Assembly: GCA_001304015.1 (NCBI GenBank)
Contig: LJUY01000059.1
Location: 1-16,148 of the forward strand
DNA length: 16,148 nucleotides
Direction: 5' to 3'
DNA from: a candidate division Zixibacteria bacterium SM23_81
Lineage (GTDB): Bacteria; SM23-81
Both the position numbers and the translations under genes were made by a program. Below the pieces are notes generated by a model. It was not told the origin of the DNA and searched no databases. It saw nothing but the letters and a program-made list of their open reading frames with translations. This document shows positions 1-16,148 of the stretch, piece after piece. Position 1 is the stretch's first letter. Every line of letters starts with the position of its first letter.

Positions 1-2333
1 GGTTGGGTCGGAGCATAGCCCGAGTTGATGCGGTAGACAAAGTCACCGGAGCGGCAGAATACGTGGCCGACATCAGGTTACCGAACACCCTTCATATGAA
101 AGTGGTACGCTCCACCCAGGCTCACGCTCACATCGTGAAGGTAGATACCCATCGGGCCGAGCAAGTTCACGGCGTGGTGGCCGTTGTCACCGGCCAGAAC
201 TGCCCATATTTGTTCGGATCCTGCATTTTCGATCAACCGCCCATGGCTACTCATAAGGTTCGCTTCGTGGGAGAGCCGGTGGCGGCCGTCATAGGCCGTT
301 CGCGGGATGTCGCCCTGGAAGCCATGGATCTCATTCGAGTTAAATACGAACCTCTGCCCGCCGTTTTCGATCCCCAGCAGGCCATAGCACCTAAGGCACC
401 CTTGTTGCACGAGGGGCTGGGTCAGTACCGTTATGTGCCCAGTTTCCACCCCCAACCTGGCACCAACATCTTCCACCACTATAAGCTGCGCAAGGGTGAT
501 GTGAACAAAGGCTTGCAGCAAGCTGATGTGGTGGTGGAAAATCGATACCAATTTCCCCATATCTCTCACGCTCAGCTGGAGCCCCACGGGACCATCGCCC
601 TTTGGGAACGCAATGGCCAACTTAAGATTTGGTCAAGCGCTCAGTCTCCCTTCTTCGTGCGGCATTCCCTGGCAGGCGCCTTCGGCCTGCCCCATGCTCA
701 GGTGAAGGTGGTGGTTCCCTATATCGGGGGAGGGTTTGGGGGGAAATCGGATGTGACCATCGAGCCTCTGGTGGCCTACGCGGCGAGAGCCGCGGTGGGT
801 TATCCTGTCCGCCTCATCCTGACCCGAGAGGAGATGTTCTCGGGCACGGTGTTGGGTCGGGGTTGCTGGGCCCGGATAAAGACGGGCGTCCAGAAAGATG
901 GAACCATCTTGTCAGAGGAAATTGAGTTGCTGTTTGGCGGTGGCGCCTATGGAGATTGTTGCATCAACATCGTGGCAGGGGCCGGCCACAATGCTCCTGG
1001 CCCTTATGAAATTCCCAACCTGAAGGTTGACTCATACGGAGTCTACACCAATACCCCTCCGGTGGGGGCCTATCGGGGTTATGGCCATCCCGAGGCACAT
1101 TGGATGGCCGAGCGGCAGATGGAGATGATCGCCCAAAAACTGAAGATAAATCCCGTCACATTGCGCAGACGCAATATTTTGCGGCCCGGCTCCGTTAATG
1201 CATTTGGCCAGAAGATGGATGCCTCCCATGGAGACCTGGATAAATGCATTCAGCAAGTGGTTCACGAGTTGCAGAAAGGTACCGTCCGGGGTTCCAGCAA
1301 AAAGGCCGCTCATAAGGTCCGGGGCACCGGGATCGCCGCCTTCATGAAATCTCCGGTGATGGCCACCAATGCAGCTTCTTGCGCTACGGTCAATTTCGGG
1401 GAGGACGGTACCGTCAACGTCTTGGTGGGCTGCACAGAGATGGGCCAAGGCTCCTTTACCGTTTTGAGCCAAATTGCCGCCGAGGCCTTGAAGGTGCCGG
1501 TAGAAAAGGTGAAGATCAACCGCATCATCGACACCGACGTAAATCCCTACGAATGGCAGACGGTGGCCAGCAGCACCACCTGGAAGGTGGGCAATGCCAT
1601 TGCTCGCGCGGTCGGACAGGCCATCCAGCAGATCAAGGAGATCGCCGCAGAGGCGTGGGGGGTGAGCTCTGAGGAGATAGAACACGGGCCAGATCGCGTC
1701 TTTCTTCGGAAAAATCCCAAGAAATTCCTTCCGTTGTCCTCGGTGGCCATGGGGCGAGTGCAGCCCGATGGCCAAGCCATTGGGGGACCGGTGGTGGGGT
1801 ATGGTCGGTTCGTGCCCCAAGGTTTAACCTACCCCGATCCGGAGACGGGACAGGGAAATTTGGCGGCGGAGTGGACCTTTGGCTGCCAGGGAGCCGATGT
1901 AGAGGTGGACTTGCGCACCGGTCACATTCAGGTTATCCGGCTGATCACAGCTATCGACGCGGGCCAAATCGTGAATCCGATCCTGGCCCGAGGACAGGTG
2001 GTGGGAGCGATGGTTTACGGTCTGGGGGCGGCTTTGAGCGAGAAGGTGATTTACTCCCCGGAAGGGTGGATCCGCAATGACTCCCTGACAGATTACAAAG
2101 TGCCCACCCCTGGGGACGCAAGTTCGATAGAATTCAAGGTCGTCTTTTTAGATACTCCTCTTCCCGACAGCGTCTATGGAGCTCGCCCATTGGCGGAACA
2201 CGGCACCGTTTCGGTGGCTCCAGCCATCGCCAATGCCATCGGTCACGCCACAGAGATTCAGTTTTTTGCCCTGCCCATGACCGCCGAGCGGGTGGTGGAG
2301 AAACTCAAGATGAAAGAAGATCGTCGATGCTGA
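1..2333 (+). CDS. Xanthine dehydrogenase family molybdopterin-binding (large) subunit, 5' end cut off
   Basis: Catalytic subunit of a molybdenum hydroxylase that hydroxylates purines, other N-heterocycles or aldehydes using water. About 776 residues are visible. The window opens inside the family's N-terminal GRSIARVDAVDKVTG motif, so a few codons are missing; the TTG at 3 is probably an ordinary codon, not the start. The large-subunit landmarks are present (numbered from position 3): molybdopterin loop IGGGFGGK at 241-248, AYRGYGHPEA, GCTEMGQGS, and near the C-terminus GARPLAEHGTVSVAPAIANA. The last aligns with the family's GAKGIGEPP motif and places the catalytic Glu at about 732. The CO-dehydrogenase signature AYRCSFR is absent (AYRGYG instead), so this is not CoxL. 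The end overlaps the FAD subunit by 7 bases (ATGCTGA), implying translational coupling. The substrate cannot be read from sequence. Confidence 0.93.
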   Translation, partial: LGRSIARVDAVDKVTGAAEYVADIRLPNTLHMKVVRSTQAHAHIVKVDTHRAEQVHGVVAVVTGQNCPYLFGSCIFDQPPMATHKVRFVGEPVAAVIGRSRDVALEAMDLIRVKYEPLPAVFDPQQAIAPKAPLLHEGLGQYRYVPSFHPQPGTNIFHHYKLRKGDVNKGLQQADVVVENRYQFPHISHAQLEPHGTIALWERNGQLKIWSSAQSPFFVRHSLAGAFGLPHAQVKVVVPYIGGGFGGKSDVTIEPLVAYAARAAVGYPVRLILTREEMFSGTVLGRGCWARIKTGVQKDGTILSEEIELLFGGGAYGDCCINIVAGAGHNAPGPYEIPNLKVDSYGVYTNTPPVGAYRGYGHPEAHWMAERQMEMIAQKLKINPVTLRRRNILRPGSVNAFGQKMDASHGDLDKCIQQVVHELQKGTVRGSSKKAAHKVRGTGIAAFMKSPVMATNAASCATVNFGEDGTVNVLVGCTEMGQGSFTVLSQIAAEALKVPVEKVKINRIIDTDVNPYEWQTVASSTTWKVGNAIARAVGQAIQQIKEIAAEAWGVSSEEIEHGPDRVFLRKNPKKFLPLSSVAMGRVQPDGQAIGGPVVGYGRFVPQGLTYPDPETGQGNLAAEWTFGCQGADVEVDLRTGHIQVIRLITAIDAGQIVNPILARGQVVGAMVYGLGAALSEKVIYSPEGWIRNDSLTDYKVPTPGDASSIEFKVVFLDTPLPDSVYGARPLAEHGTVSVAPAIANAIGHATEIQFFALPMTAERVVEKLKMKEDRRC

Positions 2334-3187
2334 GGCCCTTCGATTACTTCCATCCCAATGATATGGCCGAGACGCTGACTCTCTTGGATCAAGAAGACGA
2401 GACATCCGTGTTAGCTGGAGGGACGGACCTGCTGGTCAAGATGAGGCGGGGCAGCATACGACCTCCTGTGGTGGTGGACATCAAGGGACTGGAGGAGTGC
2501 CAGGGAATACGCTGGGAAGGTGACCGGCTCTCGCTGGGCTCGCTGACCACTTTTAACGATCTTCTCCGGTCCCAGGAGGCTCACAAGCACTTTCCCCTCC
2601 TGATTGACGCCGCTCGGGTGATGGGCTGCTATGAAGTCCGTGAGCGTGCTACGCTGGGAGGTAATGTGGTCAACGCTTCACCGGGCGCCGAATCGGGATC
2701 TCCTCTGGCCGTTCTGGAGGCTCAGGTCGTCCTCAAGGGACGCCGAGGAGAGCGGCAGATGTCCATTGGACATTTCTGGCAGGGGGTGGGAAAGACCGAC
2801 CTGGCCCCAGGTGAATTGCTGGTTCGCATCGTCATCCCGCGTTTGCCCGAGGGATCCCGAAGCACCTATCTGCGGCGCAGCCGCGTGCAGGGTATGGACC
2901 TGGCCTCGGTGAACGTGGCCGTGGTGGTGATCAATCCCCGGTTGCCTGAAAGCCGGGAGATACGAGTGGCCTTAGGAGCAGTTGCTCCCACGCCAATTCG
3001 AGCAAGAGAAGTCGAGACCTTGCTGCGTGGTCAAGAGATCACCTCCTCGCTTCTGTCGCAGATGCGGGACAAAATTCAAGAAGGTTTAGCTCCCAGGACC
3101 ACAAGCCTGCGGGCCACTCCGGGATATAAAAAAGAGATGGTTGGAGTTCTCACGGAGATGGCCCTAGAGGTTCTGCTGAAAGGGTGA
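2327..3187 (+). CDS. Xanthine dehydrogenase family FAD-binding (medium) subunit
   Basis: A 286-residue flavin subunit that passes electrons from the iron-sulfur centres to NAD+ or another acceptor in a three-subunit molybdenum hydroxylase. The N-terminus (LRPFDYFHPNDMAETL) is typical of CoxM/XdhB proteins. Both FAD-pyrophosphate motifs of the family are visible: AGGTDLLVKM at residues 30-39 and TLGGNVVNASP at 109-119. The C-terminal third matches the CO dehydrogenase flavoprotein C-terminal domain (LGAVAPTPIRAREVE). Length is normal. The start overlaps the large-subunit stop by 7 bases and the [2Fe-2S] gene follows 7 bases after the stop, so this is a single operon in L-M-S order. Confidence 0.95.
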   Translation: MLRPFDYFHPNDMAETLTLLDQEDETSVLAGGTDLLVKMRRGSIRPPVVVDIKGLEECQGIRWEGDRLSLGSLTTFNDLLRSQEAHKHFPLLIDAARVMGCYEVRERATLGGNVVNASPGAESGSPLAVLEAQVVLKGRRGERQMSIGHFWQGVGKTDLAPGELLVRIVIPRLPEGSRSTYLRRSRVQGMDLASVNVAVVVINPRLPESREIRVALGAVAPTPIRAREVETLLRGQEITSSLLSQMRDKIQEGLAPRTTSLRATPGYKKEMVGVLTEMALEVLLKG

Positions 3188-3194
3188 GGGACCT

Positions 3195-3662
3195 ATGAAG
3201 CATACCATCAATTTGAGGGTAAATGGCGAGGAAGTGACGACTGATGTGAAATCTCACCGCACCCTTTTAGAGTTTCTGCGGGATCAGCTTCATCTCATGG
3301 GAGTCAAAGAGGGGTGCGGGGATGGGGAGTGTGGGGCTTGTACCGTCCTGTTGAACGGGGAGCCAGTGCGTTCCTGTCTGATCTTGGCCGTAGAGGCCCA
3401 GAACAGCGAGATCCTGACCATCGAGGGACTGGCTGAGGGTGAAAAGCTTCACCCGCTTCAACGGGCTTTTATCGACCAGGGAGCTGTACAGTGCGGTTTC
3501 TGCACTCCGGGACTCATCATGGGGGCCAAGGCCCTGTTGGATCGCCACTCCCATCCTACCGAGGAGCAGATTCGAGAGGCTATAGGCGGTCATCTTTGCC
3601 GCTGCACGGGCTACGAGACCATCTTGCAGGCCATAAGGTCTGTTGCCAAAATGCGTCCCTGA
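3195..3662 (+). CDS. Xanthine dehydrogenase family [2Fe-2S] (small) subunit
   Basis: A 155-residue electron-transfer subunit carrying two [2Fe-2S] clusters, full length for the CoxS/XdhC-like family. The N-terminal plant-ferredoxin-type domain ligates its cluster with Cys41, Cys46, Cys49 and Cys61 (CGDGECGAC then SCL). The C-terminal helical domain uses Cys100, Cys103, Cys135 and Cys137 (QCGFCTPG and LCRCTGYE). All eight ligands are present, so the subunit should be functional. A GTGAGGGACCT ribosome-binding region precedes the ATG. It is the third gene of the operon. No maturation factor (XdhC/CoxF-like Mo-cofactor sulfurase) is visible downstream in the window. Confidence 0.96.
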   Translation: MKHTINLRVNGEEVTTDVKSHRTLLEFLRDQLHLMGVKEGCGDGECGACTVLLNGEPVRSCLILAVEAQNSEILTIEGLAEGEKLHPLQRAFIDQGAVQCGFCTPGLIMGAKALLDRHSHPTEEQIREAIGGHLCRCTGYETILQAIRSVAKMRP

Positions 3663-4052: not shown

Positions 4053-4414
4053 CGCTCTCGACCATTCCTTTGTCCGCCGGAAATGTACGCGTTCCGTCAA
4101 CTCGGCTCTTTCGACCCTCTATGCGTTATCCCTCTGGTCGACGGTGCCGGCTGTTCTGGCCTTTACCGTGAGAAGAAAAAAAATGATTCGCAGGGCCCCT
4201 TGGGTTCTGCATGGCTCCACCGTCCGCTACCGGCATATGAGAGGTCCGCGCATCAGGTCTAATCCTTGGATGGCTGGAGTTTCGCCCCGACGCCTGTCGC
4301 CTCTGGCCCGTCGACTACGCCCTAAAAGTCGCATTTCCTGGAGTTCCTGGTATTGAAGGCGGGATCCGAAAATCATTTCTCCTTCGACTTTGGATGAACG
4401 TGGGAGGTGAATGG
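4053..4414. other. Intergenic stretch without a supported gene
   Basis: About 360 bases between the small membrane protein and the flavoprotein gene. A frame running from about 4052 to 4356 is open and starts with a moderately hydrophobic run (SALSTLYALSLWSTVPAVLAF), then becomes very Arg-rich. It has no convincing start and matches no family I know, so it may be the shifted remains of a longer membrane gene or chance. I saw no clear promoter, hairpin or repeat here. A strong ribosome-binding site (GGGAGGTGA, 4402-4410) at the right edge belongs to the next gene. Confidence 0.4.
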
Positions 4415-5434
4415 ATGATCCTCGACCAACTATGGCAGAGAGGACCAGAGTTCCTGGGAGTGCGCTACCCCATCATCTGCGGGGCCATGACCTGGATCTC
4501 GGATAGCGAGCTTGTCGCAGCCGTCTCCCGAGCAGGAGCTTTCGGCAGCCTGGCCGCGGGCAACCTCCCTCCCAAGAAACTGGAGGAGGAGATCGAGCGA
4601 ACCCGCCAATTCACTGGGAAACCCTTCGCCGTTAATCTCATCACTGTCGCCCCCAATTATGGAAAACATCTTCAAGTAGTGGCTGACCAGCGTGTCCCAG
4701 TGGTGATCTTCGCCGGCAGCTTTCCCCGAGCCGCTGAGATGCAGGTGGCCCGAAGGGCCGGAGCAAAGGTTGTCTGTTTTGCCTCCAGCGAGTCTATCGC
4801 GCACCGCATGATTCGTGCTGGGGCCGATGCCCTGATCTTGGAGGGAAGCGAGGCTGGGGGACACATCGGTCGCGTCTCTTTGACGATCTTAATTCAGCAG
4901 GTTCTCTTCAAGGTGGACGAAGTTCCCATCTTTGTCGCGGGAGGCATCGCGACCGGCCGTCTCATAGCTCACTTGCTTCTCATGGGGGCTTCTGGCGTTC
5001 AGTTGGGTACGAGGTTTGTCATGTCGCAGGAGTGTCGGGCCCATCCCAAGTTCAAGGAGGCCTTTCTTCAAGCCCGGGCCAGGGACTCGGTGGCCAGTCC
5101 GGCGGTGAGCTCCGACTTACACGTGGTGCCGGTGAGGGCCATCCGTAACAGGGGCACCGAGGACTTCGCCGACCTCCAGATCGATCTGCTGCAGCGGCTG
5201 CGGAGGGACGAGATCTCCCAAGCTCAGGCCCAGCACGAAGTGGAACGATACTGGATGGGAGCGCTACAGCGCGCCGTGGAGGAGGGAGATGTGGAGCGAG
5301 GTTCCCTGATGGCCGGGCAGAGCGTAGGTTTGGCCAATCGCATCCAGCCCATAAAGGAAATTATTGAAGAACTGGTGAAAGATGCACAAGAGGAGCTGGA
5401 TCGTGTCCGAACAAGGCTGTGCTCTATTCGCTGA
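4415..5434 (+). CDS. Nitronate monooxygenase / FabK-like flavoprotein
   Basis: FMN-dependent TIM-barrel enzyme of the 2-nitropropane dioxygenase family, which includes nitronate monooxygenases (detoxifying alkyl nitronates) and FabK enoyl-ACP reductases; sequence alone does not separate the two. Typical motifs are the N-terminal GVRYPIICGAMTWISD, GKPFAVNLI, GAKVVCFASS, GADALILEGSEAGGHIG with the conserved His at about residue 150, VPIFVAGGIATG and the phosphate-binding end GASGVQLGTRF. Two in-frame ATGs exist at 4394 and 4415. I chose 4415 (339 residues) because GGAGGT at 4403-4408 sits 6 bases before it, whereas nothing comparable precedes 4394. The C-terminal 80 residues are charged and helical, as usual for the family. 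A secreted phosphatase follows 47 bases later. Confidence 0.88.
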   Translation: MILDQLWQRGPEFLGVRYPIICGAMTWISDSELVAAVSRAGAFGSLAAGNLPPKKLEEEIERTRQFTGKPFAVNLITVAPNYGKHLQVVADQRVPVVIFAGSFPRAAEMQVARRAGAKVVCFASSESIAHRMIRAGADALILEGSEAGGHIGRVSLTILIQQVLFKVDEVPIFVAGGIATGRLIAHLLLMGASGVQLGTRFVMSQECRAHPKFKEAFLQARARDSVASPAVSSDLHVVPVRAIRNRGTEDFADLQIDLLQRLRRDEISQAQAQHEVERYWMGALQRAVEEGDVERGSLMAGQSVGLANRIQPIKEIIEELVKDAQEELDRVRTRLCSIR

Positions 5435-5481
5435 TTCGCCAAAATAGCGTGCATTCCTGTCATCATTTTTAAAAGAGGTTC

Positions 5482-7428
5482 ATGATGAAAAAGCAGGCAC
5501 TGTTCATGGCGCTCGTCCTGATTTCTCTCTGCTCCGCCGATGTCTTGTCGCAATCCCTGGAGCCCGTGGAGTGGTCCCAGGAGCATATATTCACGCAGCC
5601 GCCCCGAGTGGTGGGTTTTCGAGAGGGGAATGCGCTCTTGCATTACGCCATCGTACGCCCCATGGCAAGCACCGTCCATTATGGGGCTTTCCCCGCCGAC
5701 GAGGATCTCTGTCTGCCTTCTTTTCGCTTTCGCACTAAAGCACAGGAGATTGGCGAAAAAGGGGGTTATGAGGCGGCGCTTAGAGTCTATAGGTTTGAAC
5801 AGGACATTTATAACATGGCTAAGGGATCTACCCTGGAGGGAGTGGTGGTCTATCGTGTGGGTATTTTAAATGAGGACGATGGGATAGTCAACTATTACGA
5901 GGGTCGTTTTCGGTGTGGCAAAGATGACCAAGAAGTTTGGGCCCTCAGGCCATGTCTTATCGAGGGTCCCTTCGTGGACCTGATTACGGACCGCTCGGCG
6001 ACCATCTCCCTGGAGGCCGACAGCTCCTGCTTTGCCAGAGTTCGAGTTGCTGACCGGTGGATCCTCAGCCAGGATGCCCAGGGGCACCCTCTCAAAGCTC
6101 GTCATCACGAAATCGAAATTTCTCGACTCAGTCCCTCCACCCGGTACATCTATACGGTGGAGATCTCTAGCGACCCGGATTTTGGGAAGCATCCCTTGGC
6201 CTGGCCACAGAGAACCTTTCAGACGGCTCCACCCTTTGGGTCTCGGGAACCGTTTGCCTTCGCCTATATGTCCGACAGTCGGCAAAATCCCGGGGGTGGC
6301 GAGTATGGTTTTGGCGGGTGCAATTATCGGATAGCTCAACAATTCATGGTGGACCTCTATCGCCGGGGCACCGATCTGGTGCTTTTCGGGGGGGATCTGG
6401 TCAACGGCTATACCTCCAGCAAAGAGAGCTTTCTCCGACAGCTGCGGACCTGGAAGAAGGCTGTAGAGCCGGTGGGCTCCTATCTTCCCATCTATGAGAC
6501 CGTAGGAAATCATGAGCAGATAGGAGATTATATCCGAGTGAATTTCGCCGACAGAGAGCCCATGGTTCTCTTCGCCGACAGGGCTGGAGAGGAGAGTGCC
6601 GAGGCCCTTTTTGCCTCCCAGTTCGTAAATCCCCTAGGGAGCATTTACAAATTCGGTCCACCGGATGCAGAGGATCAGTGGTCTGGTGTGGGGGGGGATC
6701 TGACAGACGCATTACGCGAGCTTGGCCTACCTCACAGGAAGGGCCCCCCTTATGAAGAGACCGTGTATTCCTTCAATTTCGACAATGTTCACTTCGTGGC
6801 CTTCAACACGAATTACTGGTACACCGGGGTCTATTATGGATCGAGAGAAAATGTGAATTTGGCCTTGCAGATCGCGGGAGGCAACCGCGAGGGCTACGTT
6901 ATGGAAAACCAACTTGCATGGCTGAAGGGGGACCTGGATGCCGCACAGAATGACGAGCATATCGATTGGATAGTGCTCTTCGCCCATGAACCGGCTTTTC
7001 CCAATGGCGGCCATCTGGGAGATGCCATGTACTGGGTTGTCAGGGGCGAGAAGGAAGGTCTCAATGACCCTCGCATCCCTTCCGGGGACGTGATTGACAT
7101 GCGCAATCGGTTCTGGAGCCTGGTCAGCTCATATTCCAAGAGCTTGGTGGTTTTCTTCGGCGACGAACACAATTATTCAAGGACTTACGTCGACGACTCT
7201 GTGCACCCCAATTATCGATATCCCGTCTGGCAGATCACCTCCGGCGGTGCTGGAGCGCCCTTCTATGGCCAGGACTCTTCCGTTCCCTGGACGATGCAGG
7301 TGAGGAAATTCACCTCCGTGCCCCACTATTGTTTTCTGAAGGTCCATGGGATGAAGGTCCAGCTGGAGGTCTGGACTCGATCCGGCCGTCTTGTGGAGCG
7401 GGTTGCTCTCTCGGACCTGCCCCGATAG
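5482..7428 (+). CDS. Secreted purple-acid-phosphatase-like metallophosphoesterase
   Basis: A 648-residue exported enzyme, predicted to hydrolyse phosphate esters in the periplasm or outside the cell. Residues 1-24 form a signal peptide (MMKKQALFMALVLISL... ending near LSQ). A fibronectin-like domain of the purple acid phosphatase N-terminal type lies at about 165-255 (LSPSTRYIYTVEI, RTFQTAPP). The calcineurin-like catalytic domain follows with its metal-ligand motifs: SDSR (Asp265), GGDLVNG (Asp305), VGNHEQ (Asn343, His344), FAHEPAF (His502) and GDEHNYSRT (Asp561, His563). The last is normally GHxH, so one expected metal-ligand His is Asp here. A long insert at about 345-470 separates the motifs. 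AAAAGAGG precedes the ATG. No T9SS C-terminal sorting domain is visible. Confidence 0.88.
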   Translation: MMKKQALFMALVLISLCSADVLSQSLEPVEWSQEHIFTQPPRVVGFREGNALLHYAIVRPMASTVHYGAFPADEDLCLPSFRFRTKAQEIGEKGGYEAALRVYRFEQDIYNMAKGSTLEGVVVYRVGILNEDDGIVNYYEGRFRCGKDDQEVWALRPCLIEGPFVDLITDRSATISLEADSSCFARVRVADRWILSQDAQGHPLKARHHEIEISRLSPSTRYIYTVEISSDPDFGKHPLAWPQRTFQTAPPFGSREPFAFAYMSDSRQNPGGGEYGFGGCNYRIAQQFMVDLYRRGTDLVLFGGDLVNGYTSSKESFLRQLRTWKKAVEPVGSYLPIYETVGNHEQIGDYIRVNFADREPMVLFADRAGEESAEALFASQFVNPLGSIYKFGPPDAEDQWSGVGGDLTDALRELGLPHRKGPPYEETVYSFNFDNVHFVAFNTNYWYTGVYYGSRENVNLALQIAGGNREGYVMENQLAWLKGDLDAAQNDEHIDWIVLFAHEPAFPNGGHLGDAMYWVVRGEKEGLNDPRIPSGDVIDMRNRFWSLVSSYSKSLVVFFGDEHNYSRTYVDDSVHPNYRYPVWQITSGGAGAPFYGQDSSVPWTMQVRKFTSVPHYCFLKVHGMKVQLEVWTRSGRLVERVALSDLPR

Positions 7429-7512
7429 AGAGAGGGGGGAGATCCCTATTTTAGCATAATCTATTCATAGATTTACAACGAATCGTTAGTCGTTTGGCAG
7501 TTTCGAAGCACT

Positions 7513-7700
7513 TAACGTGAATCGTGATTCGTGATTCGAGAAAACCTGCCAACTGCCACTGCTATTTCCATCGCTATTGCCATTGCCCATTGCCGCTGTC
7601 TTTTTAACGAATATCGAGTTTCGAATCTCAAGTCTCTAGTCTCTGATTTCCTCGAGTCTCGATTCTCGATCCACGATTCACGATTCTCGAGTCTCGGCTT
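7513..7700. repeat. Intergenic low-complexity repeat mosaic, copy 1
   Basis: The gap between the phosphatase and the amidohydrolase is filled with degenerate short tandem words. First comes CGTGAATCGTGATTCGTGA (7516-7534), then ATTGCC-type repeats (7560-7598, including TATTGCCATTGCC at 7575-7587), then AGTCTCTAGTCTC (7631-7643), then a CTCGA/GATTC mosaic to 7697. CACGATTCACG (7672-7682) is the exact inverse complement of CGTGAATCGTG (7516-7526), so the ends could pair. There is no coding potential. The same words recur in the next two gaps. The block stops just before the amidohydrolase ribosome-binding site AAGGAGG (7704-7710). Confidence 0.75.
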
Positions 7701-7714
7701 TTCAAGGAGGCGGG

Positions 7715-8959
7715 ATGGATCTGATCATCAGAGATGCGCAGCTGCGTCACACTGAAGGTACCCGCGATATCGGCGTCTCCGATGGCAGGATCGTCCAGAT
7801 CGCGAATCGAATACCCCGGAAAGGCCAACGGGAGATCGATGCTCAAGGCAGGCTGACCACTCCTACCTTCATCGACCCTCACCTGCATCTGGATAAGGCT
7901 CTCATCAGCGAGGTGGTACGACCCAACCTCTCCGGAACGCTGGACGAGGCCATCGAGATTATCTGGGAGAAGAAGAAGCAGTACACCATAGAGGATATAG
8001 TGAAACGGGCCAGCAGAGTGCTGCACTGGGGCATCGGCTATGGCACCACCATTTTCAGGACAAACGTGGATGTGGATACCATCGGGAAGCTAGTTCCCGT
8101 AGAGGCCCTGCTGGAGGTAAAAAAACGATTCGCTGGTATTTGCCGGCTACAGATCGTGGCCTTCCCCCAGGAGGGCATTCTGAAAAACCCGGGAACAGAG
8201 GAACTATTGCGTCAGGCCATGAAGATAGGTGCGGATGTGGTTGGGGGCATGCCCTTTAACGAGCGCACCATGGCGGACTCGCAAAGGCACATCGACATCT
8301 GTTTTGAAATCGCTAAGGAATTCGGCGCGGACATAGACATGCACGTGGACGAGACGGATGATCCCAGCGCTCGGACTTTAGAACTGCTGGCCGCGAAGAC
8401 CATCCAGGAGGGCTATCAAGGTCGGGTGACTGCCGTCCACACCTGTGCCTTGGCCGCCTACGATGACGTCTACGCTGCGAAAGTCATCGGACTGGTCAAA
8501 GAGGCGGGCCTGAACATGATCACCAATCCGGCCACCAACCTGATGCTACAGGGTCGAATGGACACCGAGCCCAGAAGAAGGGGCATCACCAGGGTCAAGG
8601 AGCTTCTGGCCGCCGGGATCAACGTTGCCTATGGCCAGGATTGTCTCAAGGACACTTTCTATCCCACCTTTGGGCAGGCCGACCCTCTGGAGGTGGGCCT
8701 CATCACTGCCCATGCCGCCCAAATGAGCCTGCCGGAGGAGATTGAAACCCTCTTCGACATGGCCACCGTCAATGGAGCCAGGATTCTGAGGATGGAGGAT
8801 TATGGAATCGAGGAGGGCAGAACGGCCAATCTCAATATCATTGACACCACAACCGTGCAGGAGGCTTTTCGCACGCAGGCCGATCGCCGCCATGTTATTC
8901 GCAGGGGAGAGGTGATCGCCGAGACGGAGACGAGGACGAAACTGCATATTGACGCTTGA
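7715..8959 (+). CDS. Cytosine-deaminase-family amidohydrolase
   Basis: A 414-residue cytosolic zinc amidohydrolase, close in length to E. coli CodA (427). Motifs are DPHLHLDKA (His56, His58), AFPQEGIL (Gln152), DMHVDETDDP (His210, Glu213), AVHTCALAAY (His242) and GQDCLKDTFYP (Asp309). From my memory of CodA (H61, H63, Q156, H214, E217, H246, D313) these keep a near-constant offset of four or five residues, so the metal site and the cytosine-binding Gln are intact. The CodA Asp314 position is Cys310, and the Trp in DPWYP is Phe. The substrate may therefore be a cytosine analogue such as isocytosine, creatinine or an N-substituted triazine or pyrimidine rather than cytosine. AAGGAGG lies 4 bases before the ATG. 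Repeat mosaics flank the gene on both sides, and a nucleoside phosphorylase follows. Confidence 0.88.
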   Translation: MDLIIRDAQLRHTEGTRDIGVSDGRIVQIANRIPRKGQREIDAQGRLTTPTFIDPHLHLDKALISEVVRPNLSGTLDEAIEIIWEKKKQYTIEDIVKRASRVLHWGIGYGTTIFRTNVDVDTIGKLVPVEALLEVKKRFAGICRLQIVAFPQEGILKNPGTEELLRQAMKIGADVVGGMPFNERTMADSQRHIDICFEIAKEFGADIDMHVDETDDPSARTLELLAAKTIQEGYQGRVTAVHTCALAAYDDVYAAKVIGLVKEAGLNMITNPATNLMLQGRMDTEPRRRGITRVKELLAAGINVAYGQDCLKDTFYPTFGQADPLEVGLITAHAAQMSLPEEIETLFDMATVNGARILRMEDYGIEEGRTANLNIIDTTTVQEAFRTQADRRHVIRRGEVIAETETRTKLHIDA

Positions 8960-8970
8960 GGATTTGGGAT

Positions 8971-9094
8971 AAGAGACTAGAGACTGGAGACTGGAGACAT
9001 GTGAAATACATAATGGCAATGTGCAATGGCAGTAGCAATGAAAGATTAGTAAGCTCTTACTGCCGATTCTTTTTATTGCCATTGCCATTGCCAC
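8971..9094. repeat. Intergenic low-complexity repeat mosaic, copy 2
   Basis: Between the amidohydrolase and the nucleoside phosphorylase. GAGACTAGAGACT (8973-8985, continuing as GGAGACTGGAGAC) is the exact inverse complement of AGTCTCTAGTCTC in copy 1. A GGCAAT-type run (9013-9040) faces an ATTGCCATTGCCATTGCCAC run (9075-9094) across about 34 bases, so the two could form an imperfect hairpin. TATTGCCATTGCC (9074-9086) is identical to 7575-7587. No gene or clear promoter is seen. The block ends just before the ribosome-binding site AGAAGGGG at 9103-9110. Confidence 0.75.
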
Positions 9095-9116
9095 TTTAAC
9101 TTAGAAGGGGACTCCA

Positions 9117-9857
9117 ATGGCCAAACAATACCATATCCAACTAAACAAAGGAGAGGTTGGTAAATACGTTCTCTTGCCCGGCGATCCTGGGCGAGTGCCA
9201 CAGATCGCCAAGTTTTTCGACTCTGCCCAGCAGATGGCTGAGAACCGGGAATTCGTGACATATACCGGAGAGGTGGCAGGTATTCCCATCTCTGCCACCT
9301 CCACGGGCATCGGGTGCCCCTCGGCGGCCATCTGCGTTGAGGAGCTGGCCAGGATCGGCGCCCAGGTCTTTATCCGGGTGGGGACAGCCGGGTCGCTGCA
9401 GGAGAATGTGGATTTGGGTCATCTGGTCGTCACTACCGGCTCGATCAGGGACGAGGGGACCTCTCGGCAATACCTTCCTCTCAGCTATCCAGCGGTATCT
9501 GACCTGGGCGTCACTAGCGCGCTGGCGGAGGCGGCCGGGAAGCTGGGATTGCCTCACCACATGGGCATCACACACTGCAAGGATGCTTTTTATGCCGAGT
9601 TCACCGAAGGTCACCCGATGTCCGAGGATTGGACAAGGAGGTGGACCGTCTGGCGCCGTGCCGGGGTACTGGCCACCTCGATGGAGTCAGCGGCCATCTT
9701 CGTGATCGCCTCCATCAAGGGCCTCCGGGCCGGTGAGGTCCTGGCCGTCGTGGGATTGGCCTACAAGGACCACCCCGTGCTGGAGGGGAACAAAGGCATC
9801 GATGAGGCCATCCAGGTGGCCATCGAGGCGGTGAAAATTCTGGAGGGGAAGTCGTGA
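9117..9857 (+). CDS. Uridine-phosphorylase-family nucleoside phosphorylase
   Basis: A 246-residue cytosolic enzyme of the NP-I family that splits a nucleoside with phosphate into a free base and (deoxy)ribose 1-phosphate. It aligns over its whole length with E. coli Udp (253 residues). Motifs are LLPGDPGRV (Arg26, phosphate), NREFVTYTGE (Arg44), STGIGCPSA, FIRVGTAGSLQ (Arg87, Thr90), GSIRDEGTSRQY and the ribose-binding SMESAAIF. The loop that in E. coli Udp holds the uracil-reading Gln and Arg (FYPGQER) reads FYAEFTE here, so both are missing. The true base may not be uracil. Udp-like family membership is secure, substrate is not. AGAAGGGG lies 6 bases before the ATG. Repeat mosaics flank the gene, and a hairpin terminator lies about 230 bases downstream. 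Confidence 0.88.
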   Translation: MAKQYHIQLNKGEVGKYVLLPGDPGRVPQIAKFFDSAQQMAENREFVTYTGEVAGIPISATSTGIGCPSAAICVEELARIGAQVFIRVGTAGSLQENVDLGHLVVTTGSIRDEGTSRQYLPLSYPAVSDLGVTSALAEAAGKLGLPHHMGITHCKDAFYAEFTEGHPMSEDWTRRWTVWRRAGVLATSMESAAIFVIASIKGLRAGEVLAVVGLAYKDHPVLEGNKGIDEAIQVAIEAVKILEGKS

Positions 9858-10084: not shown

Positions 10085-10120
10085 AAAGGCCATCAGGAAA
10101 CAGTGTTCCTGATGGCCTTT
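10085..10120 (-). terminator. Rho-independent terminator (best on - strand, possibly shared)
   Basis: AAAGGCCATCAGGAA (10085-10099) and TTCCTGATGGCCTTT (10106-10120) form a perfect 15-bp stem with a 6-base loop. Read on the - strand it lies just after the stop of the T9SS-sorted protein and ends in a run of six T (complement of 10082-10087), a textbook terminator. On the + strand the tail is only TTTCGTT, so it may also stop transcription coming from the nucleoside phosphorylase, but less efficiently. It sits exactly between two convergent transcription units. Confidence 0.9.
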
Positions 10121-10138
10121 CGTTATCCGGTCGCGGGC

Positions 10139-11155
10139 TTATTTGAGCAGGGTCATTTTTCGGATTCTGGTGTAGGGTCCCGCGGACAGGCGGAAAAAGT
10201 AGATCCCACTGGCGACTGAGTTTCCCCACTCATCTTGGCCGTCCCAATCGACTTGGTAGCAGCCAGACTGTTGAGTTGCTTTCACAAGGGTACGCACTCG
10301 CTGCCCCAACAGGTTGTAAATTACCAGGCTGACCTGGGAGCTCTGAGGCACCTGATATGTGATGGTCGTCCTGGGATTGAAGGGATTGGGGTAGTTTTGA
10401 AATAGTTGATAACTGGTGGGACCCGAGAAGTCGTTCTCTTGAGCCACATCTGTCCTCGCTGTGGCCGAGACAGGGCCAAACAGAGACAGGCTATCGCTGA
10501 ACTCGGCAAGACCTAATTTATACCAGTAGGTGATGCCGTTGGAAACCTGATAGTCGGTGTAGATACATTGTTGTTGTTGGTCAGGGGCAATGGGTTCAGC
10601 ATTGAGTTTCTGGTAGAAACCCTCCTCAGCAGTGCTCCGAAAGATGTGAAAGGTGAGATGAGGAGCAGTCTGATGTAAGGTCCATACCACCCTGACCTGA
10701 TCGTCAGATCCCATCGCGTTTAGGTTCTGGAGAAAAGGTTGAAGGTGGAGAGTTTGGACCAGTTGAGGTTCGACGGCAGCGTCCAGTGGGATGGAAAGTA
10801 TGAGCAATTGGTCGTTGGTCGCATTGGCGATGGCCAGGCGGAGGGAGTCGCCATTGGCCCACTCGAATTGAGTGAAGTTCGCGCACTCCAACTCGAACCA
10901 TCCCTCACCCATGACGCCATTTCCGTAAGCGTTGCCGGTATCGTAGTTGCTTCTGGTTTCGGATTGGACGCCGCCGTCGGATACGTCTATTAGAAAAGCC
11001 GCGAAAGTCACGTCGTTAGCGGGGGGAATATTTTCATTATCATCGCGTACCATCCCCAACACCGTATGCGGCACTTGGCCCTGCGAAAGACTCACAAAGA
11101 GCAGCAGCAGGACGACGAGAAAAATACCCGCAGATAAGATTCGTTTCCTGAACAT
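10139..11155 (-). CDS. Secreted protein with T9SS C-terminal sorting domain
   Basis: A 338-residue exported protein of unknown function. Residues 1-26 are a signal peptide (long Leu/Val core, cleavage near SQG|QVP). Residues about 27-112 form a domain shared with the neighbouring 676-residue protein (VPHTVLG, GNAYGNGVMGEGWFELEC, FEWANGDSL). Residues about 150-235 resemble a fibronectin type III-like fold (VRVVWTLHQ, ITYWYKLGLAE). Residues 245-338 are a typical type IX secretion sorting domain: YQLFQNYPNPFNPRTTITYQ, VSLVIYNLLGQRVRTLV, SGIYFFRL, ending KMTLLK. It should be passed through the outer membrane by T9SS and anchored or released. AGAGGGGG lies upstream of the ATG and could be masked by a hairpin. 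A terminator follows the stop. Confidence 0.88.
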   Translation of the reverse strand: MFRKRILSAGIFLVVLLLLFVSLSQGQVPHTVLGMVRDDNENIPPANDVTFAAFLIDVSDGGVQSETRSNYDTGNAYGNGVMGEGWFELECANFTQFEWANGDSLRLAIANATNDQLLILSIPLDAAVEPQLVQTLHLQPFLQNLNAMGSDDQVRVVWTLHQTAPHLTFHIFRSTAEEGFYQKLNAEPIAPDQQQQCIYTDYQVSNGITYWYKLGLAEFSDSLSLFGPVSATARTDVAQENDFSGPTSYQLFQNYPNPFNPRTTITYQVPQSSQVSLVIYNLLGQRVRTLVKATQQSGCYQVDWDGQDEWGNSVASGIYFFRLSAGPYTRIRKMTLLK

Positions 11156-11589: not shown

Positions 11590-13620
11590 TTACAGACCAG
11601 CAGCGCCGACCAGATGGCGATGCTGCGGAGACCTCTTGCCAGGAGGCCAGCTGCTTGTATTGGTCACGTTCACGTAGTAAGGGTACCCTCTTCGCACAGC
11701 ACCCTCGCCGAACCAAGTTTCTCCCACCTTGAAGGCGATGGGGACGTAGGCTTGGCTCTTTGTGCTCCATTCTTTTACGGCTGTGCAGTATGGAATGGCA
11801 GCCCCGAGATCCTTGGCCGTGGCGATGTCGCTGGATAGAGGAAGAGAGATGGTGTTGTAGTCGTTCCCGGTTGGAGCCACGAGATCGAAGCTGGGATCGG
11901 GGGGAGCCTGTCCCGCCAGGGTCCATAGGCTCTCGGCGGTGGTGCCGACGAACAGGTAGTAGGGGTGTCCCATAAAAACACTCGCCGATCCATGCCAGAC
12001 GTTGTTAACCTTAAAAGCCACAGAGACGTAGCCTCTCTGCTCGGCGTTCCACACCTTGACCGCCGAGCAGTTGGGCACTTTGGCCCCCAGCTCTCTGGCC
12101 AAGGTGGTGATCCCATCATCTAAGCTCAGGGAAATCATGGTATAGCCAGAGCTGGTTTGGGGGAGGCGGTAATCAATCTCCCCAGCTCGGTTGGAGTTAT
12201 CGCCGATATTACCGACATAATCCACGCCCTGCACCAGGTAAAAGCTATTGGTCTCCAAGTTGCCCGCGCCGCCGTCATCATCGAGGAAGCTGGTGTCGGA
12301 GGCGACGCCGATGGATTCGACAGAGGTGGGTGTGAAATATGGAGCTTCATTTCGATAGATGATATAGCCCTGCATGGTCTCTGGATTTCCATAAATGTCC
12401 GTGGTGATGGCCGACCAGCGGAGGCGTAACTCATGGTTTTCTTCAGAGGCCATCAGGTCGGTCACGGCGGCTGGTGGAAACTGGTCAGGGACAACCTGGG
12501 TGGTCTGGCTGCTAATGGCCTCGACCCCTTGGTCACAGGTGATGTAAGCGACGTCCTCGAGTTGGATGCCATTGGGCAATGGCCAGTCCACCAGGACAGT
12601 GAGGCTCAGGAAGCCCGAGGTGCCCGCGGATATCGTGCCCAAGTTCCAGATCACCCGCTGGCCGTCATAGGATCCACCGCCGGTGTTGGAGACGTAGGTG
12701 GTATGAGTGGGTATGGTGTCCACCACGACCACACCCGTGGCCTGGTCGCTGCCGGTGTTGTCGTAGAAAATCGAATAGGTCAGGCTGGCACCGGCTGCAA
12801 CGGGATCTGGAGATTCGAACAGGTTGAAAGTCCAGGCTGGGGCCGCTTGAACTGTGAGTGATTGCGAGACACTGGTCTCAACTTCTTGATCACAGGTGAT
12901 GTGGACCACGTTGATGATGACGGTACCATCGGCCAGAGGGCTGTTCACCCTCAGGGTGAGAGAGATGCTTCCCGAACCTCTGGGCGGAATTGCGCCCAGG
13001 GTCCAAACCACCCGCTGGCCATCATAGTTCCCACCACCGGTGCTTGAGAGATACGTGGTATTGGCAGGTATGGTATCCAGGATGGTGACGCCCGTGCCCG
13101 TACCATCCCCCATGTTTTGGTAGTTGATGGTATAGGTCACGGTCTGACCTGCCCAAACGGGATCGGGATCGTCATCCATGCTCATGGACCAGTCCGGCAA
13201 AGGTTCCATGAGGATGATGTCGGCGGTAATCTGTGGCTCCTGATCGGCGAACAAAAGGACAGCTAACAGTCCCTGCTCTCCATTTATGGAGTTAGAGAAA
13301 TTGACCATCAGGGAGTCACCATCTGACCAGTCGAAGGTGGTGAAGTTTCCGCACTCGACCTCGAACCATCCCGGTCCCACAATGCCGTTGCCATAGGCAT
13401 TGCCGGGATCTGCTTCCGTTCGCGTCTCCGAGTGAGAGTTGTTGTTGGAGACGTCCACGAGATAGGCCTCGAAGGAAAGCTCGCCCACCTCGGGGACGGT
13501 GTCATCGGAGTTGAAGACCTGACCGATGACGGTGTGGGGCACCTGCGCGCCACTTCGTGTGGAGCTCAGCAGCAAGGAAATAGCCGCCAAACCGATGATG
13601 AGAAAGCTCCTCGATGACAT
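11590..13620 (-). CDS. Large secreted multi-domain protein (shared N-domain, two DUF11, Fn3-like, two tandem modules)
   Basis: A 676-residue exported protein, function unknown, likely extracellular. Signal peptide 1-25. Residues 26-112 form the domain shared with the 338-residue neighbour (QVPHTVIG, GNAYGNGIVGPGWFEVEC, FDWSDGDSL). Two DUF11-type surface repeats follow at about 150-257 and 268-377, each with TGVxxxDTIPxxTTY and GGGxYDGQRVxWxLG. A fibronectin-like domain (381-484, with ETNSFYLVQGVDYVGN) is followed by two copies of an unrecognised module, 490-583 and 584-657 (IPYCTAVKEW, AFKVGETWFGE, GYPYYVNV). It ends WPPGKRSPQHRHLV..., with no T9SS sorting domain. GGGAGGAG precedes the ATG. 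It lies 30 bases after the stop of the 429-residue gene, so the two are probably one operon. Confidence 0.85.
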   Translation of the reverse strand: MSSRSFLIIGLAAISLLLSSTRSGAQVPHTVIGQVFNSDDTVPEVGELSFEAYLVDVSNNNSHSETRTEADPGNAYGNGIVGPGWFEVECGNFTTFDWSDGDSLMVNFSNSINGEQGLLAVLLFADQEPQITADIILMEPLPDWSMSMDDDPDPVWAGQTVTYTINYQNMGDGTGTGVTILDTIPANTTYLSSTGGGNYDGQRVVWTLGAIPPRGSGSISLTLRVNSPLADGTVIINVVHITCDQEVETSVSQSLTVQAAPAWTFNLFESPDPVAAGASLTYSIFYDNTGSDQATGVVVVDTIPTHTTYVSNTGGGSYDGQRVIWNLGTISAGTSGFLSLTVLVDWPLPNGIQLEDVAYITCDQGVEAISSQTTQVVPDQFPPAAVTDLMASEENHELRLRWSAITTDIYGNPETMQGYIIYRNEAPYFTPTSVESIGVASDTSFLDDDGGAGNLETNSFYLVQGVDYVGNIGDNSNRAGEIDYRLPQTSSGYTMISLSLDDGITTLARELGAKVPNCSAVKVWNAEQRGYVSVAFKVNNVWHGSASVFMGHPYYLFVGTTAESLWTLAGQAPPDPSFDLVAPTGNDYNTISLPLSSDIATAKDLGAAIPYCTAVKEWSTKSQAYVPIAFKVGETWFGEGAVRRGYPYYVNVTNTSSWPPGKRSPQHRHLVGAAGL

Positions 13621-13650
13621 TTTTCTCCTCCCAGATGAAGGTGAAAGCCG

Positions 13651-14940
13651 TCAATTTTGGCCCCGCTTACGGAATCCCTGCTTGTCTGAAAGAACGATCT
13701 TTCCGCCAGGCCAAACCCCATCCTGGGTGACGTTGACAAAATAGGGTTGTCCTCGACGGATGGCCGCCTCTCCATACCACGTTCCCGACACTTTGAAGGC
13801 GATGGAACTGTAAGCTTGAGTTTGGGGATCCCACATTTTTACCGCTGTGCAGTGAGGAATGGACTGCCCCAGCTCCTTGGCCAGGGTAAGGGTGTTGGAG
13901 AGAGGTAGGGTGATGGTATTATAGCCATTGCCTCCGGGGGCATACAGTGTGAAGATGGGGTCCGCGGGAACCCCGCCCACCATGGTCCAGACGTTCTGTG
14001 GGCTGGCCTCTACGAAGACATAGTATGGATATCCTAATTGCAGATCTGTCTCTCCGTACCAAGTATCATCAATCTTGAAGGCACGGGATGCAAAACCTTG
14101 TATCTGGGGATCCCACTCCTTAACCGCCGTGCAGTTGGGTATGTCCTGGCCCAGATCTTTGGCCTTGATGATCTGCCCATCGTCCAGAATCAGGGAGACC
14201 ATGTGATATCCCGATATCTGGGGGATGATGGTGTAATCGTATTCGCCCACGCGGTTAGAGATATCACTTTCGTTACCCATGAGATCCACAGCTGTGACCA
14301 GATAGAAGGAATGGCGATCGACAGAGCCTATATCGCTGTTTTCGTCGAGATAAGAGGTTGTTTGAACTCCATGGATGAAATCCGTCACATCAGGCCAGAA
14401 CAGAGGGATTTCGTTACGATAGATATTATAGTGGCTGAGATTCTCCGCTAAGCCCAGGGAGTCCAATGTGACCGCGGGCCAGCTCAGCAACACTGCGCCC
14501 CCCGACTCCTCAGCCGCCAGCTGATCGATGTACTGTGGGGGAATCTCGTCGGAACCAGCGGGCAGGCACAAGATCTCGTCCGATTCCGGCGAGTGGCTCC
14601 CCTCCTCACCGTATTGGTTCACTCCGGCCACCTTCATTTTGTAGCGATGGCCGCTGACCCCCGGGACGGAATAGGTGTTCGTGTAAACGGTATCGTAGTG
14701 GCTAAATTCTGTACCATCTATGGACAGATAGATGTTGTAATAGGCCAGGGCATTGTCGGCATTTTCCGGCTCGGTCCAGGTGAAATCTAACCAGGAATCG
14801 TCGTCAACGCCGTCGAAATTGATCTTAGCCTGGCACCACGAAGCTGGGGCGAAGAGAATCAGGAAAATGCCCACCGCGAAGAGCCATCTTGGCGTTAGAT
14901 GGCGGTGTTTTCGCTTCTCGAAAATGATGATGTTGGTCAT
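13651..14940 (-). CDS. Secreted protein with two Fn3-like domains and two tandem modules
   Basis: A 429-residue exported protein, function unknown. The frame is open back to an ATG at 15150, but I chose the ATG at 14940: GGGAG lies just upstream of it, and only from there does a normal signal peptide begin (charged start, core LFAVGIFLILFAPASW, cleavage near WCQA). Fibronectin-like domains lie at about 47-125 (SWLDFTWTEPE, YYNIYLSIDG) and 135-237 (HYNIYRNEIPLF, HSFYLVTAVDLMGNESDIS). Two tandem copies of the unrecognised module follow at 242-335 and 336-408 (IPNCTAVKEWDP, TWYGE, GYPYYVFV). The tail ends WPGGKIVLSDKQGFRKRGQN, without a T9SS sorting domain. The second half is collinear with the second half of the 676-residue protein encoded next. 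Confidence 0.85.
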   Translation of the reverse strand: MTNIIIFEKRKHRHLTPRWLFAVGIFLILFAPASWCQAKINFDGVDDDSWLDFTWTEPENADNALAYYNIYLSIDGTEFSHYDTVYTNTYSVPGVSGHRYKMKVAGVNQYGEEGSHSPESDEILCLPAGSDEIPPQYIDQLAAEESGGAVLLSWPAVTLDSLGLAENLSHYNIYRNEIPLFWPDVTDFIHGVQTTSYLDENSDIGSVDRHSFYLVTAVDLMGNESDISNRVGEYDYTIIPQISGYHMVSLILDDGQIIKAKDLGQDIPNCTAVKEWDPQIQGFASRAFKIDDTWYGETDLQLGYPYYVFVEASPQNVWTMVGGVPADPIFTLYAPGGNGYNTITLPLSNTLTLAKELGQSIPHCTAVKMWDPQTQAYSSIAFKVSGTWYGEAAIRRGQPYFVNVTQDGVWPGGKIVLSDKQGFRKRGQN

Positions 14941-15813: not shown

Positions 15814-16148
15814 ATGGTAAATAAGACGAGTTATTTAGTCGGATTTCTAGGCATACTCTTTGCCGCGCTTTTGATTTCTGCTTCATCTCCATTCGCCGCG
15901 CCCACCAAGGAGCCAGCCGAGGTCGTGCTGAAGGACAGAGCCGAGCTGGAGAGGCTGGTCAAACTGGACATCAGCATCGATCGGATCAGAGATAACGTGG
16001 TGACCATTTATGTGAACCCAGAGGAGTTTAACCAGATTCGAGCCGCAGGTTTCCAGATTCAGTGGATTCCCAACCGGGCCAAGATGTATGCCGACAGCTT
16101 GTGGCAGGCCACCAAGGGAACTGCAAATCCCATGGCGGCCTATCACAC
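15814..16148 (+). CDS. Secreted protein, probable M14 zinc carboxypeptidase, 3' end cut off
   Basis: The frame is open from the ATG at 15814 to the end of the window (111 codons, no stop). GAGGAG (15805-15810) ends three bases before the ATG. Residues 1-29 are a signal peptide (YLVGFLGILFAALLISASSP, then FAAP). Residues about 35-95 resemble the propeptide of secreted M14 carboxypeptidases: a VxLKDRAELERLVKLDISID strand-helix, then VVTIYVNPEEFNQIRAAGF and a WIPN strand. The last residues seen (NPMAAYHT) match where the mature peptidase begins, usually YHTYDEM-like. The zinc-binding HxxE lies beyond the window, so the family call rests on the propeptide. A role in extracellular peptide breakdown is likely. 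Confidence 0.65.
   Translation, partial: MVNKTSYLVGFLGILFAALLISASSPFAAPTKEPAEVVLKDRAELERLVKLDISIDRIRDNVVTIYVNPEEFNQIRAAGFQIQWIPNRAKMYADSLWQATKGTANPMAAYH

Follow-up and report, generated by a model that had tools for sequence, protein, structure and literature searches.

A tandem module pair and a PHxVxG domain as candidate docking partners in type IX-associated secreted proteins of a Zixibacteria locus

Introduction

Two adjacent genes in a contig of candidate division Zixibacteria bacterium SM23_81 (LJUY01000059.1) encode secreted proteins that each carry two tandem copies of a module near the C-terminus. An earlier note, made from the sequence alone, knew no named family for this module and took it for a beta-rich extracellular binding domain. 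The locus raises the question of what the module is, why it comes in two copies, and what it might do at the end of these proteins. The window discussed here is the whole stretch of DNA that was analyzed, 16,148 nucleotides in length.

Results

The locus and its surroundings

Three genes for secreted proteins, denoted B, A, and C in the order of reading, lie on the minus strand of the window (Table 1). The gene for A starts 30 bp past the stop codon of B on the same strand, and gene C is located 434 bp past the stop codon of A; the latter gap weighs against assuming that A and C are co-transcribed. Protein C ends in a sorting domain of the type IX secretion system (T9SS) that scored over the cutoffs of TIGR04183 (38.4 bits, cutoff 23) and Por_Secre_tail (29.4 bits, cutoff 27), with a further match to FlgD_ig at 45.4 bits. 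The genome also encodes SprA, the T9SS translocon, in a frame of 1969 codons that scored over its own cutoff (G000:C94). On these two findings, a sorting domain over the cutoff and SprA in the genome, protein C is a putative T9SS type A cargo protein. Scans with Pfam and NCBIfam found no C-terminal T9SS sorting domain in A or B, in which 14 to 15 residues follow the module pair; the tail of B, about 15 residues long, is basic. PADLOC gave no matches to A, B, or C. The tail of A is unlike that of B; we do not claim a frameshift at this position, because the homolog of A in genome G001 likewise stops 13 residues past its pair.

Table 1. Features of the B-A-C locus, with positions counted from the first nucleotide of the window.
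Feature	Position	Strand	Description
Protein B, 429 aa	13651..14940	-	Signal peptide, two fn3-like domains, C-terminal tandem module pair
fn3-like domain immediately N-terminal to the pair of B	14230..14559	-	By eye
Module copy 1 of B, re-framed	13963..14253	-	RVGEYDY... to WTMVGGVPA
Module copy 2 of B	13699..13974	-	GVPADPIFTL to WPGGK; closed alpha/beta model, pLDDT 88.9
Protein A, 676 aa	11590..13620	-	Signal peptide, PHxVxG, two DUF11, fn3-like, C-terminal tandem pair
PHxVxG domain of A	13246..13539	-	Mature N-terminus
fn3-like domain immediately N-terminal to the pair of A	12169..12495	-	By eye; 41% identity with its counterpart in B
Module copy 1 of A, re-framed	11899..12189	-	
Module copy 2 of A, re-framed	11635..11910	-	
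Protein C, 338 aa	10139..11155	-	Signal peptide, PHxVxG, fn3-like part, T9SS type A sorting domain
PHxVxG domain of C	10778..11071	-	Mature N-terminus
T9SS C-terminal sorting domain of C	10154..10393	-	TIGR04183, Por_Secre_tail, FlgD_ig matches

The fibronectin-like domain that the earlier note placed ahead of the module is recognizable by eye in both proteins; Pfam, however, sees only a weak fn3 match farther upstream in B (residues 42–117, 20.7 bits against a cutoff of 25, E-value 4.9e-4), and neither Pfam nor the PDB gave a match for the domain that immediately precedes the pair in A and B. This preceding domain is conserved too, with the pattern 'IPPxxxxDLxAxE...SFYLVxAVDxxGNxSDxSNRVGEYDY'.

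A strong inverted repeat at about 10086–10122, directly 3' of gene C (AAAAGGCCATCAGGAA...TTCCTGATGGCCTTT), is likely a terminator common to converging genes. On the plus strand, positions 3–3662 hold a three-gene molybdenum hydroxylase operon of the xanthine dehydrogenase/CO dehydrogenase type, with MoCoBD, FAD-binding, and 2Fe-2S subunits. The genes at 4394–9857, also on the plus strand, encode a nitronate monooxygenase, a metallophosphoesterase with a purple-acid-phosphatase-like N-terminal domain, an amidohydrolase (cytosine-deaminase-like by eye), and a nucleoside phosphorylase superfamily protein; together with the molybdenum enzyme they suggest purine/pyrimidine salvage or catabolism. 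At the right edge of the window, a plus-strand gene divergent from B begins (15814–16146). Its 111-aa fragment had no Pfam match; the counterpart on the complementary strand of locus L008, where synteny with A and B is kept, is M14 zinc carboxypeptidase-like by eye.

Module boundaries, fold, and the two copies of a pair

Both proteins carry two copies of the same module where the earlier note had placed them, at residues 490–583 and 584 to about 661 of A and at residues 242–335 and 336 to about 412 of B (in that note's frame for the first copy), and the shared motifs that it quoted are found in the copies. Each of the six pairwise alignments between the four copies scored 31 to 53 SD over shuffled sequence. 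The copy boundaries, in contrast, were off by one strand, and copy 1 begins about 10 residues earlier. In relatives, 'DPxFxL' is the start of copy 2 and the counterpart of the 'VGEYDYxL' located just ahead of copy 1, while 'WTxxG' closes copy 1 as 'WP' closes copy 2; from these matching start and end motifs, each copy comprises about 85–90 residues.

A structure prediction (AF2) of the pair with the original boundaries and a four-row alignment was poor (pLDDT 55, pTM 0.47), had no PDB match at an E-value of 0.001, and was discarded. For a single re-framed copy (copy 2 of B), we used eight natural copies as the alignment, taken from the window and L008 only, and obtained a model with a pTM of 0.80 and the pLDDT given in Table 1. 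The predicted order is two short strands, a helix, and strands at 42–49, 54–62, 65–67, 77–82, and 86–88. One module is thus predicted to be a closed fold, but an alpha/beta one and not a purely beta structure. No fold search with this model reached significance (best Foldseek E-values 0.6 against the PDB and 0.07 against BFVD; best VIA Z 3.5). This does not make the module a new fold, as an existing fold may have been missed.

The single Cys that had been described as conserved is invariant inside a subfamily, but not across the family. Among 30 pairs, it occurs in both copies of 17, in neither copy of 11, and in one copy of two, which rules out an invariant binding Cys as a family feature. 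The joint gain or loss in the two copies may reflect an inter-copy disulfide or homogenization. Copies within a protein are also more alike (mean 0.49) than copies from different proteins (0.31). This likeness, together with a Cys present in both copies or in neither in 28 of the 30 pairs, suggests that the two copies of a pair form one functional unit. At about 75%, the identity of the two copies in loci L007 (G001:C47) and L039 (G068) is far over the average for the family and points to a recent duplication, or to gene conversion between them.

Family identity and distribution

The absence of a named family stood up to HMM and profile searches, with no significant match in Pfam, NCBIfam, PHROG, or the PDB. 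For A, B, C, and 30 diverse pairs, no score for the module exceeded a curated cutoff in Pfam-A (2025) or NCBIfam (2026), and sequence profiles of the window copies and 30 diverse relatives had no significant match to the PDB. Scattered Pfam matches (DUF1285_N, DUF5356, CdiI_N, and others) were each limited to one or two members and were dismissed as chance; the match to DUF1285_N, in one of the 30 members, was sub-threshold (19.9 bits against a cutoff of 29.3). PHROGs yielded weak matches only, to families of unknown function, and no relative of the module was found in the viral contigs and plasmids scanned. Single-copy modules of the type 'GLNMISVPL...GYIVNV' (G042, G399, and G268) were the closest relatives detected, with HMM matches at E-values of 1e-8 to 1e-6. 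The comparison of the pair with a profile of these modules in hhalign, made with small alignments (Neff about 2), gave an E-value of 2.4e-5 and a probability of 75% over 72 columns. They share the motif order with the pair and likewise have no Pfam name; they differ in having one copy and, in the three genomes named, no detected PHxVxG partner (see below). Protein A shares two DUF11 repeats with the DUF11/TIGR01451 surface repeat proteins, but the module pair is unrelated to DUF11.

Close relatives, at 73% and 58% identity and with the gene order kept, were found in a single genome from the family of the source bacterium; its record, DAOVRJ010000151.1, is labeled Candidatus Zixiibacteriota. 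In a profile search of one other phylum, 27 of 82 genomes contained the pair, with up to 11 matches per genome; among 386 broadly sampled genomes, 18 had matches, some of which are merely distant single-copy relatives. The pair also occurs in several lineages farther away. The module is nearly always present as a tandem pair, and it is this pair, not the single module, that is the conserved unit. The pair can form almost an entire small secreted protein (225 aa in L052 and 232 aa in L054).

A PHxVxG domain downstream of the pair

Downstream of the pairs we found a second domain, with the pattern 'PHxVxGxVxNxDGxxPxxxxIxFxAYL...W..GD.L.V.F', which had no match in Pfam, NCBIfam, or the PDB; no description of either domain was found in the open texts searched. 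The positions of PHxVxG domains from a whole-genome search were set against those of the 54 pairs in the other phylum. A PHxVxG domain was located at most 1 kb downstream on the same strand for 49 of these pairs (45 of them at most 300 bp), against about 0.02 expected; the profile was seeded from the neighborhoods of pairs, and PHxVxG domains far from pairs may be undercounted. Two of the five pairs without a nearby PHxVxG domain are at contig ends. The linked pairs divide into 27 that share an open reading frame with the PHxVxG domain and 22 in which that domain is encoded by the next gene.

The two domains also co-occur by genome. Each was detected in 27 of 81 genomes, 26 of them in common (Fisher test, 6e-19), and the association was seen at the family level as well (p 1e-4); both values are inflated by genome relatedness. 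In the broad set of 386 genomes, the pair was present in 11 of the 13 genomes with PHxVxG, and for each of the other two, a different genome of its family has the pair.

The fused proteins consist of a variable N-terminal part followed by the pair, the PHxVxG domain, and a T9SS sorting domain. In the split form, the first protein stops 0–19 residues past the WP of the pair, and the second has a signal peptide and the PHxVxG domain; nearly all complete second proteins end in a T9SS sorting domain. The first proteins are varied, with a subtilase as well as Ig-like and kelch proteins among them, as expected of a reusable connector. The split arrangement occurs twice in the window: B terminates in a pair, A runs from PHxVxG to a pair, and C runs from PHxVxG to the sorting domain. 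The T9SS type A sorting models (TIGR04183/Por_Secre_tail) match C and most PHxVxG partners at the C-terminus; they do not match the module pair, and A and B are without this domain. In loci L089 (G097:C68) and L088 (G122:C2), several genes for secreted proteins stand in tandem, each encoding pair, PHxVxG, and sorting domain, and small proteins made of a signal peptide, PHxVxG, and a sorting domain are interspersed among them.

Coupled evolution of the pair and the PHxVxG domain

The distance matrices of the pair and the PHxVxG domain correlate with an r of 0.78 over 34 tuples, a value reached by none of 2000 global permutations. When partners were swapped within genomes that have two loci, the true assignment came first of 64; the runner-up swap was almost equal and probably exchanged near-identical loci. 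L016 (G096) and L049 (G235) combine a window-type pair with a window-type PHxVxG domain, unlike the other loci of their genomes. Changes between the fused and the split form number four by parsimony on the pair tree, and at least two by its strongly supported (starred) branches. Physical linkage alone yields matched subtypes; the coupled evolution therefore backs a unit of pair and PHxVxG domain, not docking itself.

Discussion

The module of the earlier note is an unnamed domain with a closed predicted fold, and signal peptides together with the type IX secretion context support its extracellular placement. That reading is amended in the boundaries and the fold class, in the pair as the unit, and in the partner domain. 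As to function, our preferred reading, held at somewhat less than even confidence, is that the pair and the PHxVxG domain dock and thereby tether proteins without a sorting domain to an anchored one. The two alpha/beta modules of a tandem pair, similar to each other and each about 90 residues long, would form one structural unit; this unit would make up one half of a two-part joint, with the PHxVxG domain as the other half. A C-terminal pair would dock non-covalently onto the mature N-terminal PHxVxG domain of the next protein of the operon. The last protein would form the base of the chain and recruit proteins without a sorting domain to the outer surface, a role assigned to it because it alone carries the type IX sorting domain. 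In the window we infer docking in the chain B-A-C, in this direction, with anchoring at the surface through C as the base. The joint would act in cis in fused proteins and in trans in split ones.

Several observations count against docking. Fused proteins make trans docking unnecessary. Some pairs have no PHxVxG domain nearby (the one in G001:C47 and some in G131 and G132), and in G001 none follows protein A within the about 580 bp to the contig end. The main rival, somewhat unlikely in our judgment, is that pair and PHxVxG domain are consecutive rigid stalk segments ahead of the type IX sorting region, inherited as a block in a gene that was sometimes split between them, with no specific interaction in trans. 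Half of the cases are indeed one polypeptide with the order pair, PHxVxG, and sorting domain, and the linkage, the matched subtypes, and the fusions are equally expected from adjacent domains inherited as a block. However, a split pair protein, having no sorting domain, would lose its anchor as a stalk, and yet the split is kept in several families and outside the phylum. Furthermore, a standalone protein of signal peptide and pair (225 aa) adjoins a PHxVxG protein (L052/L093).

Less probable still is a role of the pair in binding carbohydrates or surfaces, as a CBM-like domain that secreted proteins display at their tip or C-terminus. The pair is rich in aromatic residues, secreted, and at times located at the C-terminus next to a catalytic domain (for example, a subtilase); but this function leaves the near-obligate PHxVxG partner and the co-loss (26 of 27 genomes) unexplained, and the structural searches gave no significant match among CBMs or lectins. 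The role that we consider most improbable is that of an alternative export or retention signal for the type IX machinery, used in place of the sorting domain. Proteins that terminate in the pair do lack a sorting domain and stop within 0–19 residues of the conserved WP, and SprA is encoded in the genome of the window. On the other hand, the pair is internal and followed by a normal sorting domain in 27 cases, and a partner with a sorting domain still neighbors most split cases.

Returning to docking, a broader proposal goes with it, which we put forward more tentatively: the two domains may constitute an undescribed complementary docking-domain family of type IX-secreted proteins in several mostly uncultured lineages, in which proteins without the C-terminal sorting domain (CTD) would be displayed on a CTD-bearing base and could be chained into linear surface fibers such as B-A-C. 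Cohesin and dockerin are the docking pair of the cellulosome, and dockerin is an internally duplicated motif, a calcium-binding EF-hand-like repeat. If docking holds, the two systems would have in common complementary domains on separate secreted proteins, an anchored base, and modular cargo; the pair, like dockerin, is internally duplicated. In contrast to dockerin, the module is a predicted alpha/beta fold of 85–90 residues and not EF-hand-like, and neither the pair nor the PHxVxG domain matched the cohesin or dockerin models of Pfam. The partner genes, unlike those of cohesin and dockerin, are adjacent or fused, and the exporter would be type IX.

The proposal would give two unnamed domain families, with up to 11 copies in a genome, a joint role that can be tested. 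Should docking prove true, the type IX route would have a connector similar to cohesin-dockerin, and this would explain how large surface proteins that have no sorting domain get to the cell and remain on it. Partners would then be predictable from sequence in uncultured phyla, and the two domains would provide a new tool for pairing proteins.
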